A DNA stretch of 64,000 nt from Collinsella sp. An268 (GTDB lineage Bacteria; Actinomycetota; Coriobacteriia; Coriobacteriales; Coriobacteriaceae). The stretch lies in the NCBI RefSeq assembly GCF_002159765.1, contig NZ_NFJH01000001.1, forward strand, positions 248,001-312,000, in the 5' to 3' direction. Every line of letters starts with the position of its first letter. Within the stretch, counting starts at the first letter, position 1. Shown here one piece after another: positions 13,172 to 24,011 of the stretch. The notes below the pieces were generated by a model. It had not been told where the DNA came from and did no database searches. It saw only the letters and a list, made by a program, of their open reading frames with translations. Made by a program: the position numbers and the translations under genes.

Positions 13172-14539
13172 ATGGAGGGAATCCTCACCGTCGTGCGCAC
13201 GGTATTCTGGGGCCTGCTCATGCTCTCACTGCTCGTCTTCGTTCACGAGGGTGGGCATTTTCTCGCATCCCGTCTGATGGGCGTGAGGGTGACGGAGTTC
13301 TTCCTCGGCCTGCCCTGCCGCTTCAACCTGCACCGCGCGTCTCGGCGCATCGGCACCAAGTTCGGCGTGACGCCGATACTGCTCGGCGGGTACGCGATGG
13401 TGTGCGGCATGGAGCCGGAAGGTGACAGCGCGCTCGCCGCGCGCGTCCTGGGGTCGGTGCACCGCAGGGGCAAAGCGACCGTCGAGGATCTCGCCCAGAG
13501 TCTTTCCGTCTCGGAGGACGCCGTCATGGCGGCCTGCATCCAGTTGGCCGACTGGGGGTCGATCGCATCGGTCTACGACACCGAGGCGGGGGAGCGGCCC
13601 GGTGTGTACTATGCGACCACGTACGCCGCCATGCCGCGCGATGCCAAGGGCAACACGCTCTACGACGGACGTGGTTTCGACCGCGCCCATGCCACGGCGG
13701 AGGGCGAGGTCTGGGCGCCGCCCACGCCCGACGAGGAGTTCTTCCAGGCGGAGCGGTCGCGCACCTATGCCGGCAAGGGTTTCTGGGCGCGCGCGTTCAT
13801 CCTTGTTGCAGGCGTCGCCGTCAACCTGGTTACCGGGTTTCTCCTGCTTATGGCCATCTACAGCCTCGTGGGTGTCACGGTGTCGCTCGATATCAACCAA
13901 GTGGGCTCCGTTGAGGCGGGGTCACCCGCCGATTCCGCGGGCATCGAGGCGGGTGATGTCATCACGGCCGTCAACGGTGTCGAGACCGCCACGTTTACGG
14001 AGGTCGGCGACGAGCTCGAGACCGTCGGTCCGGGCGGAGCGGCGTCCCTTGCCATCGAGCGCGGCGGCGATGCCTTGACCATCACGGCGACCCTCGATGA
14101 TGAGGGCGCCCTCGGGATCAACGTCCCGCAGGAGACGGTGCACCTTGATATCGGCCAGGCAGCCCGCGTGACCTGGTCGTACCTCGCCATGACGGCGCAG
14201 AGCATCGGAAACCTCCTCAATCCCCAGCACACCATGGAGGTGCTGAACAGCTCCACCTCGGTGGTCGGCATCTCCGTTATGGCGGCCGCGGCGGCCGAGA
14301 GCGGTGCGTCCACGTTCTTGAGCGTAAGCGCCCTCATCTCCTTCTCGCTCGGCTTCATGAACCTCCTGCCCATACCCCCGCTCGACGGCGGCAAGCTCCT
14401 CATCGAGGTCATACAGGCGATCATCCGCCGTCCGGTGTCGCCTAAAGTCCAGGAGCGCATCTCCTACGTGGGCGTGGCGCTCTTCGGACTGCTGTTCCTG
14501 TACATGCTGCGCCTCGACATCGTGCGCTTCATCCTGTAG
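13172..14539 (+). CDS. rseP: RseP-type site-2 protease with an unusual winged-helix-like insert
   Basis: An M50 zinc protease that cuts inside the membrane (455 residues). The active-site HEGGH lies at 25-29 in the first membrane segment. The second motif is LLPIPPLDGG with D402 near the C-terminus, and a PDZ domain spans about 235-310. Between GGYAMVCGMEPEG (72-84) and the standard FWARAFILVAGVAVN (204-218) there is an extra stretch of about 110 residues. Its first half (about 90-137, VLGSVHRRGKATVEDLAQSL and onward) reads like a winged-helix DNA-binding fold; the second half is aromatic and acidic. Ordinary RseP proteins have only a short loop there. The position between dxr and ispG is the standard one. 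The family call is firm; the role of the insert is unknown. Confidence 0.93.
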   Translation: MEGILTVVRTVFWGLLMLSLLVFVHEGGHFLASRLMGVRVTEFFLGLPCRFNLHRASRRIGTKFGVTPILLGGYAMVCGMEPEGDSALAARVLGSVHRRGKATVEDLAQSLSVSEDAVMAACIQLADWGSIASVYDTEAGERPGVYYATTYAAMPRDAKGNTLYDGRGFDRAHATAEGEVWAPPTPDEEFFQAERSRTYAGKGFWARAFILVAGVAVNLVTGFLLLMAIYSLVGVTVSLDINQVGSVEAGSPADSAGIEAGDVITAVNGVETATFTEVGDELETVGPGGAASLAIERGGDALTITATLDDEGALGINVPQETVHLDIGQAARVTWSYLAMTAQSIGNLLNPQHTMEVLNSSTSVVGISVMAAAAAESGASTFLSVSALISFSLGFMNLLPIPPLDGGKLLIEVIQAIIRRPVSPKVQERISYVGVALFGLLFLYMLRLDIVRFIL

Positions 14540-21710: not shown

Positions 21711-21719
21711 GGAGTGAGC

Positions 21720-22400
21720 ATGCTGGACTTCTCCTATATCCTCTACCTCCTCATGCAGGCTCTTGCGGTCATCGTGGGGCTCTGCGTGCACGAGAGCGCC
21801 CACGCCCTCGCTGCCTGGGCGCTCGGCGACAAGACCGCGCGCTCACGGGGGCGCGTCTCGCTCAACCCCCTCGCGCATATCGACCCCTTCGGCACCGTGC
21901 TGTTGCCGCTCATCATGATCGTGCTCGGCGGGCCCGTATTCGCCTTCGCCAAACCCGTACCCGTGTACCTGGGCAATCTCAAGCACCCCAAACGGGACGA
22001 GGTCATCGTATCGCTGGCTGGGCCCGTGTCGAACATCGTCCTTGCGGTGGCGTTCGCCTTGCTGCTCCACGGCGTTGCGGGCCTGTCCTTTACACCCAGC
22101 ACCGCACGGGCGCTCTACGCGGCGGCCACGTTCTTGCAGCTCGCCGTCCTCTGCAACCTGTCGCTCGCCTTTTTCAACCTCATACCTCTGCCGCCCCTCG
22201 ACGGGTCGTCGCTCGTCGTGCCCTTCCTCTCGGGCCGCGCGCTCGATACGTACTATCAAATCCAGCGTTATGCGATGCCGATCCTCATCATCGTGCTCTA
22301 TCTGGTACCCCAGGTCCTGCGCATCGACCTCGTGGGCATCTACTTCAACTTCACCGTCTACCCGCTCTTCGACCTTCTGACCGGGCTTGCGTTGGGCTAG
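21720..22400 (+). CDS. Site-2 protease family protein (M50, YwhC-like)
   Basis: A short M50 metalloprotease of 226 residues with no PDZ domain. Zinc-binding HESAH lies in the first membrane segment (GLCVHESAHALAAW), and the second motif is LPPLDGSSLV. NPLAHIDPFGT and AKPVPV are typical of the YwhC/Rip subgroup. The ATG at 21720 is preceded by GGAG at good spacing; a GTG six bases upstream is also in frame. It precedes scpA, an order shared by many Gram-positive genomes. The substrate is unknown. Confidence 0.93.
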   Translation: MLDFSYILYLLMQALAVIVGLCVHESAHALAAWALGDKTARSRGRVSLNPLAHIDPFGTVLLPLIMIVLGGPVFAFAKPVPVYLGNLKHPKRDEVIVSLAGPVSNIVLAVAFALLLHGVAGLSFTPSTARALYAAATFLQLAVLCNLSLAFFNLIPLPPLDGSSLVVPFLSGRALDTYYQIQRYAMPILIIVLYLVPQVLRIDLVGIYFNFTVYPLFDLLTGLALG

Positions 22401-22454
22401 AATGGGAGAACCTGCGCCTCAACAGGGGCATCGAGGGCAAAGGAGGGGAGCGGC

Positions 22455-23255
22455 ATGTCCTATCGCGTGAGCACGGCGGGCTATACCGGCCCCTTCGACC
22501 TTCTGCTCCAGCTCGTCAGCCGTCAGAAGGTCGATATCGGTGCGATATCCATCGCCGAGGTCGCCGAGCAGTATCTCGCCGAGGTCGACCGCATGACCGA
22601 CGTCGACCTCGACGTTGCGAGCGATTTCCTGCTCGTCGCGGCGACCCTGCTCGATATCAAGGCCGCATCGCTCGTTCCCGAGGAGGCGAGTCGCCCCTCC
22701 GGCGACGAGCTCGAGGAGGACGACGAGCTGGCAGGCCTCGACGCCGATGCCCTGCGCGAGGTGCTCATCCAGCGCCTCATCGCGTATAAGCAGTTCAAGG
22801 GCGCCGCATCGGCGCTCGGGGCGCGCATGGAGGCGGAGAGCCGCATGCATCCGCGCGTCGCCGGGCCTGACCCTGCTTTTCTGAACCTCATGCCCGACTA
22901 CCTTGCCGGCATCACCCTTCGCGGTCTCGCCGTCATATGCGCGGATCTCGACAGCCGGCGCGAGACGTTTCTTTTGGAGGCCGAGCACGTCGCCCCGCAT
23001 CGCGTGCCGCTGGAGCTCACCGTCGCCTCGGTAGACCGCCTCACCGCCACTAAGGGCTCATGCACCTTCAGCGACCTCATCGCCGGGGCGGAGACAACCG
23101 ACCAGCTCGTCTCGACCTTTCTGGCGATACTCGAGCTCGCGAAGCGCGGCGCGCTCCTGCTCACCCAAGAGGAGAACTTTGGCGAGATCATGATCGAGCG
23201 CGTGCCCGGCGCCCCCGAGTACCATCCGGGCGAGGCGCTCACCGTAGAGGAATAG
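22455..23255 (+). CDS. scpA: Segregation and condensation protein A
   Basis: ScpA is the kleisin subunit of the SMC-ScpAB condensin. The 266-residue protein has the N-terminal YTGPFDLLLQLVSRQKVDIGAI signature spread over two blocks, ASDFLLVAATLLDIKA, an acidic middle (about 80-95) and the C-terminal winged-helix region that binds SMC (SDLIAGAETTDQLVSTFLA). AAAGGAGGGGAG precedes the ATG. scpB follows 42 bases later. Confidence 0.96.
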   Translation: MSYRVSTAGYTGPFDLLLQLVSRQKVDIGAISIAEVAEQYLAEVDRMTDVDLDVASDFLLVAATLLDIKAASLVPEEASRPSGDELEEDDELAGLDADALREVLIQRLIAYKQFKGAASALGARMEAESRMHPRVAGPDPAFLNLMPDYLAGITLRGLAVICADLDSRRETFLLEAEHVAPHRVPLELTVASVDRLTATKGSCTFSDLIAGAETTDQLVSTFLAILELAKRGALLLTQEENFGEIMIERVPGAPEYHPGEALTVEE

Positions 23256-23297
23256 CCGATGCGCCCCGGGCGCGAAGGGATTGGTTAGATATAGAAG

Positions 23298-24011
23298 ATG
23301 GAAGATCTGGAGAAGTTGAACCCGCTCTCACCCAAAGCGGCGCTCGAGGCGCTGCTCCTGGTGTCGAGCGACCCGGTGAGCGCCAGCGCGCTCGCGCAGG
23401 CGCTCGACATCGCTCCCGGTGAGGCGGCGTCGCTCTTGGCCGAGCTCAAGGTCGAGTACGAGGAGGCGAACCGCGGCTTCCAGCTGCGCGAGGTCGCCGG
23501 CGGGTGGCGCCTGTTCACCCATCCGGCCTTCCACGAGCAGGTGGAGTCGTTCGTCCTGTCGTGGGACACCCAGAAGCTCAGCCAAGCGGCGCTCGAGGCG
23601 CTCGCCGTCATCGCGTACCACCAGCCCGCCACGCGCGAGCAGGTCCGCGGCATACGCGGGGTGAACTCGGACGGCGTCATCTCGTCTCTGGTGGACAAGG
23701 GGCTGGTGCGCGAGCTCGGACGCGACCCGGAGCGCGGCCAGGCCATCCTGTACGGCACGACCAACGCCTTCCTCGAGAAGTTCGGCCTGCGCTCCCTGAA
23801 GGATCTGCCCGACCTCGAGCAGTTTGCGCCGGACGAACAGTCGCGCCAGTACATCCGCGAGCGGCTCTCCGGCCGCAGCATCCAGTCCACGCTCGAGGAG
23901 GCGGACGAGGACCTGGCCGAGGAGCGCGAGCTCATCGACGGGTACGACGGCGACGATGATGACGACCTCATGCTCGTGGGCAACGCGACCGATGAGGAAT
24001 TCGATGACTGA
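23298..24011 (+). CDS. scpB: Segregation and condensation protein B
   Basis: ScpB binds ScpA as a dimer of two winged-helix domains. The 237-residue protein contains SPKAALEALLLVSSDPVSA, FQLREVAGGWRLFTHP, LSQAALEALAVIAYHQPATR and VNSDGVISSLVDKGLVRELG, which match both domains. The acidic C-terminal tail (from about residue 190) is common. The end overlaps the rluB start. Confidence 0.96.
   Translation: MEDLEKLNPLSPKAALEALLLVSSDPVSASALAQALDIAPGEAASLLAELKVEYEEANRGFQLREVAGGWRLFTHPAFHEQVESFVLSWDTQKLSQAALEALAVIAYHQPATREQVRGIRGVNSDGVISSLVDKGLVRELGRDPERGQAILYGTTNAFLEKFGLRSLKDLPDLEQFAPDEQSRQYIRERLSGRSIQSTLEEADEDLAEERELIDGYDGDDDDDLMLVGNATDEEFDD

Follow-up and report, generated by a model that had tools for sequence, protein, structure and literature searches.

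A predicted winged-helix domain in the first cytoplasmic loop of the intramembrane protease RseP in Coriobacteriia

RseP is known for gating its substrates from outside the membrane by means of PDZ domains. The solved RseP structures from E. coli (7w6x), Kangiella (7w6y/7w6z) and Aquifex (9j82/9j83) share the group I site-2 protease (S2P) core, the HExxH and LDG motifs, a membrane-reentrant β loop and PDZ domains, of which each protein has two; none carries an insert between the β loop and TM2. In E. coli RseP, substrate is bound by the C1N segment and the β loop after it, which belong to the same loop as the one discussed here (PMC4597795, PMC7728848), and a size filter is provided by the PDZ domains (PMC7728848). 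Among the S2P groups, group I is characterized by PDZ domains and group III by CBS domains, and groups II and IV are without extra domains; the available text of the review that sets out this scheme (PMC10202637) does not mention a winged helix. The group III enzymes SpoIVFB and mjS2P likewise have an additional cytosolic domain, but there it is a C-terminal CBS domain.

Here we describe RseP of Collinsella sp. An268, encoded in a stretch of DNA of 64,000 nucleotides (the window), which differs from these enzymes in having one PDZ domain and, inside its first cytoplasmic loop, a predicted winged helix. The protease itself is known. Its clade-wide winged-helix form appears to be new, with a fold that is well supported by prediction and a function that we infer. 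In the open-access literature we found no description of a winged helix in RseP, nor of site-2 proteases of Coriobacteria, in agreement with the sequence-only reading of the window, which knew of no described RseP with such an insert. The class concerned comprises gut and environmental bacteria, among them a group that is abundant in the human gut (Collinsella, Olsenella and relatives of Eggerthella) and whose envelope signalling has been little studied.

The rseP gene and the position of the insert

The rseP gene (13172..14539, + strand) is an intact open reading frame for a 455-aa S2P (RIP metalloprotease RseP). The protein passes the curated cut-offs of both Peptidase_M50 (E 4e-44) and the RseP equivalog TIGR00054 (171.6 versus 147.55 bits), and its gene lies in a row that, judged by sequence, reads frr, uppS, cdsA, dxr, rseP, ispG and proS. 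The hallmarks of group I S2Ps (HExxH, NxxPxPxLDG and the M50 domain) are all present. The HEGGH zinc/catalytic motif in TM1 (residues 25–29, 13244..13258, +) is invariant in the orthologue alignment, as are N397, P400 and L404–G407 of the second catalytic motif, NLLPIPPLDGG (residues 397–407, 14360..14392, +). Pfam identified one PDZ domain (PDZ_6, match at residues 244–297, E 6.2e-12), corresponding to a single extracytoplasmic domain at residues 236–312 (13877..14107, +). Thus both catalytic motifs and the PDZ domain are intact, as had been noted from the letters. A Pfam scan of RseP found no CBS domain, the mark of group III.

The reentrant β loop ahead of TM2 is also present, as judged from an AlphaFold strand at residues 73–77 and from the alignment to E. 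coli RseP (7w6x); TM2 itself corresponds to an AlphaFold helix at residues 204–233 (13781..13870, +). The second half of the β loop (VTPILLGGYAMVC, residues 66–78, 13367..13405, +) abuts the insert (residues 80–202, 13409..13777, +), which is found neither in the RseP structures from E. coli, Kangiella and Aquifex nor in RseP of the other phyla examined, and which lengthens the first cytoplasmic loop by ~100 residues relative to the latter. This confirms the earlier proposal of ~110 extra residues at 13415–13757, a range that the insert encloses. The distance from the GGY of the reentrant loop to the AG..VN of TM2 is 138 residues here and 28–46 in almost every RseP locus from other phyla (the comparison set consists of the RseP relatives returned by one scan, and the few values outside this range are plainly failures to match the pattern). 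A profile alignment to 7w6x places the additional residues between positions 78 and 81 of the E. coli protein. As the E. coli β loop has been studied as residues 61–75 (PMC4597795), the insert starts ~3 residues past it. The known topology of the E. coli enzyme places the loop that bears the insert in the cytoplasm.

Predicted fold of the insert

The core of the insert (13427..13630, +) is modelled by AlphaFold2 as a helix (H1, residues 86–99), a strand (101–103), a second helix (H2, 104–111), a third, ‘recognition’ helix (H3, 115–127) and two wing strands (131–134 and 150–153). This H1-b1-H2-H3-b2-b3 order in a compact domain is that of a canonical winged helix. The mean pLDDT was 88.6 for the insert alone and 91.3 for full-length RseP, with most of the core at 91–97. 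The C-terminal part of the insert (residues 155–198, RDAKGNTLYDGRGFDRAHATAEGE..FFQAERSRTY, 13634..13765, +) contains short helices in the model (163–168 and 187–195) and is shorter in other families in the alignment.

Structure searches with the insert model pointed in the same direction. Foldseek returned no match at E ≤ 0.001, and its top rows were nearly all winged-helix proteins. VIA-align placed Z-alpha, MarR, ROK and ESCRT-II winged helices at Z 6.7–7.9, the best being 4wcg_A (Z 7.9, rmsd 1.5 Å over 61/61 residues). Because VIA Z values <8 often arise by chance, we rely on the concordance of fold, sequence and conservation. In Pfam, members of the insert family matched TrmB (4e-4), HTH_PafC (5.5e-4), FeoC (9e-4) and MarR_2 (2.4e-3). 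Where cut-offs were shown, no HTH family (MarR_2, TrmB or HTH_PafC) exceeded its curated value: the best HTH score of the window insert was 18.4 versus 27 bits, and TrmB reached 23.2 versus 25.6 bits in the homologue L130. A profile of the insert compared with the PDB matched DDRGK1/UFL1, eS25, MntR and FtsK gamma, of which DDRGK1/UFL1 was the best (1.3e-4 for the whole sequence at best, the best single stretch being weak).

Taken together, a winged-helix fold of the insert is well supported by prediction, which bears out the winged-helix-like pattern that had been read from the letters. Nor is this a chance resemblance: orthologues whose inserts share as little as ~20% identity still have the domain, and its predicted elements follow the canonical order. 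The sequence-only reading had named three outcomes that would speak against it, namely predicted disorder, lack of a compact fold and an insert that is standard in RseP of distant phyla. All three were looked for, and none was found.

Distribution, conservation and history

The winged-helix insert is standard throughout the class Coriobacteriia and is not peculiar to the Collinsella genome. All genomes of the same family (67/67) had a match to the window RseP, nearly always an RseP spanning the insert; one assembly (G038) contained another M50 protein only, with no RseP seen. The insert was also present in the other sampled families of the order and, in a shorter form (~86–99 residues between the fixed points), in other orders of the class. 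A profile built from 48 inserts matched 236 of the 248 Coriobacteriia genomes and 218 of the 221 good ones, a tally that counts any match anywhere in the genome. As the G038 assembly shows no RseP, its profile match (E 2.4e-4) probably lies in some other protein. Of the good genomes, three lacked a profile match: one had an intact RseP without the insert (G219), one a truncated RseP (G269) and one no RseP that we could see (G273). In several RseP homologues the insert is itself interrupted by a long acidic or low-complexity loop, which lies in the helix 2–helix 3 region in L142 and L143 and in the wing in L160.

Outside the class the picture was different. In the sample of the phylum, profile matches at E 1e-17 or better were confined to Coriobacteriia. 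The 358 genomes outside the class yielded no RseP-sized match, and the six weak matches there (E 2e-6 to 8e-6) lay in other reading frames. Other Actinomycetota have RseP without an insert or with a different one, and the winged-helix insert was found neither in them nor in the other phyla examined. A lineage limit of the insert is thus supported, with the class as its boundary among the Actinomycetota sampled and the RseP relatives from other phyla that one scan returned.

Loop-spanning matches from two other families of Actinomycetota were considered as the same insert and rejected. Those of family f38 carry an unrelated insert of ~100 aa. In family f74 (L162–L165), this cytosolic loop of RseP likewise houses an additional domain, but one that Pfam identifies as PDZ (PDZ_6, E 2.2e-12); it is present besides the usual extracytoplasmic PDZ domain and is of separate origin on the tree. 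Four RseP proteins of other Actinomycetota (L166, L167, L172 and L174) have inserts of ~90–120 residues in this loop, two of which (L166 and L172) had no Pfam match. The first cytoplasmic loop of RseP looks like a hot spot for insertions.

On a quick tree built from columns outside the insert and the PDZ domain (SH-aLRT support only), the RseP proteins of Coriobacteriia group together with a support of 99, and the winged helix needs two changes. The most plausible reading is a single gain on the stem of the Coriobacteriia and a single loss in three genera (g97, g106 and g112) of family f13, where no sign of a substitute was found. In RseP of these genera (L183, L185, L186 and L188), which has no insert, the PDZ region measures 111–126 residues versus 84–97 in most others. 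The PDZ domain was also lost once, on the common stem (support 96) of family f2 (L125–L130), which from its sequences and lineage we read as Eggerthellaceae, and a sister lineage (L068 and L069). These proteins have kept the winged helix, and Pfam found no PDZ domain in L125, L127, L130 or L068.

Within Coriobacteriaceae and Atopobiaceae, the mean pairwise identity was 0.40 for the winged-helix core, 0.35 for the PDZ domain and 0.71 for TM1 with the β loop. In most close pairs dN of the core was well below dS (e.g. 0.012 versus 0.14 and 0.038 versus 0.31), indicating that the domain is under purifying selection of roughly the same strength as the PDZ domain. The conserved positions of the insert are core residues and a glycine (L93, G100, A108 and L125), and a tryptophan at position 128 is nearly constant (83%). 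A metal site was considered and dismissed, as no Cys or His of the insert is conserved class-wide.

Possible functions of the domain

The explanation that we prefer, and to which we give an even chance, is that the insert is an acquired, degenerate winged helix that no longer binds DNA and serves as a protein-docking or gating module on the cytosolic face. A single event in the ancestor of Coriobacteriia would have placed the winged helix in the first cytoplasmic loop, between the β loop and TM2. Its contacts there would be with a cytosolic partner or with the portion of type II membrane substrates that reaches into the cytosol (an anti-sigma factor carrying its ECF sigma factor, for instance), and it would help to decide which transmembrane segments get to the β loop and the active site. 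Such a role is made likelier by the fact that the insert directly follows the substrate-gripping β loop. By analogy with E. coli RseP, a folded domain between the β loop and TM2 seems well placed to meet a type II membrane substrate from the cytosol, or else a partner by which access is controlled. The retention of the winged helix where the PDZ domain was lost also speaks for docking or gating, as does the higher conservation of its core relative to that domain. The DDRGK1/UFL1 profile match also points this way, as the partial winged helices of these proteins sit in a protein–protein complex; however, they belong to eukaryotic UFMylation, the match is weak and there is no evidence of common descent with the insert. 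Against docking or gating, the loss of the insert in the three f13 genera suggests that it is dispensable in some settings. Protein binding, the nature of the partner and the gating of cleavage are what we infer, and the protein half of the original suggestion of a DNA- or protein-binding module is plausible on these grounds.

The genome itself offers candidate substrates. At two places (L230:132-2043 and L231:581-1980), an ECF sigma gene precedes one that encodes a putative anti-sigma protein with a membrane anchor. The putative regulator of the first pair is DUF4179-like, below threshold, and that of the second has an RsgI central domain (E 3.9e-21). RseP of Clostridium thermocellum cleaves RsgI (PMC12203970). 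Both anti-sigma proteins may be cut by RseP and touched by the winged helix. The anti-sigma zf-HC2 domain was not found in this genome.

A bolder form of the docking reading, which we regard as a long shot, is that control of RseP in Coriobacteriia has shifted to the cytoplasmic side, with the winged helix sensing the cytosolic part of the substrate or a partner and, in Eggerthellaceae, replacing the PDZ size filter. If true, this would be an inside-sensing form of regulated intramembrane proteolysis in Eggerthellaceae. A cytosolic domain behind the substrate-gripping loop that is kept without PDZ would be a natural test of PDZ-free substrate choice by an S2P.

Two other roles seem rather unlikely to us. 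One is self-association, in which the winged helices of two RseP chains would pair to give a dimer or a higher assembly. Such pairing is seen in many proteins, the insert profile matches the composite winged helix of DDRGK1/UFL1, and SpoIVFB, another S2P, is tetrameric with its substrate, but the RseP structures from E. coli, Kangiella and Aquifex lack the domain and so give no guidance. Alternatively, and with a similarly modest chance of being right, the domain could merely stabilize the loop and the reentrant β sheet, with no specific partner. This would fit conserved positions that are those of the core and a glycine, a loop that seems tolerant of PDZ and unrelated ~100-aa inserts in other Actinomycetota, and one loss without visible compensation. 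However, retention in almost the entire class, conservation above that of the PDZ domain and the tryptophan at 128 suggest more than filler.

Least probable by far is binding of DNA by the winged helix, which would anchor RseP on the chromosome or make cleavage depend on the state of DNA: the domain lies on the cytoplasmic side, its fold is common to many DNA-binding domains and its best matches include Z-alpha and MarR structures, but the recognition helix and core are without net positive charge in all 48 inserts, unlike MarR-type helices of the same clade, and no Pfam HTH family reached its cut-off. The net charge of helix 3 was ≤0 in 48/48 inserts (mean −2.94, with 0.54 Lys/Arg per helix), and that of the whole core ranged from −2 to −11. 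In comparison, 24 MarR-type helices from genomes of the same clade, at least one row of which looks misaligned, had a mean charge of +0.21 and 2.2 Lys/Arg. Winged helices of the MarR, TrmB and PafC types share the fold (sub-threshold in Pfam, VIA Z ∼7) but bind DNA via more basic helices, whereas the insert is acidic and forms part of a membrane protease. Ordinary DNA binding by the insert is thus disfavoured, and with it the DNA half of the original suggestion, although low positive charge would not be a strict bar to nucleic-acid binding.

The window contains a second M50 protein, of 228 aa and without PDZ, which is encoded directly ahead of an scpA-like (22455-23255) and an scpB-like (23298-24011) gene (window 21714-24011). 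ScpB was considered as the donor of the winged helix and set aside, because the alignment leaves the origin of the domain undecided: the ScpB of the window aligns with the insert in the same HTH register at an hhalign probability of 18%, as does a generic MarR-like sequence at 5%.
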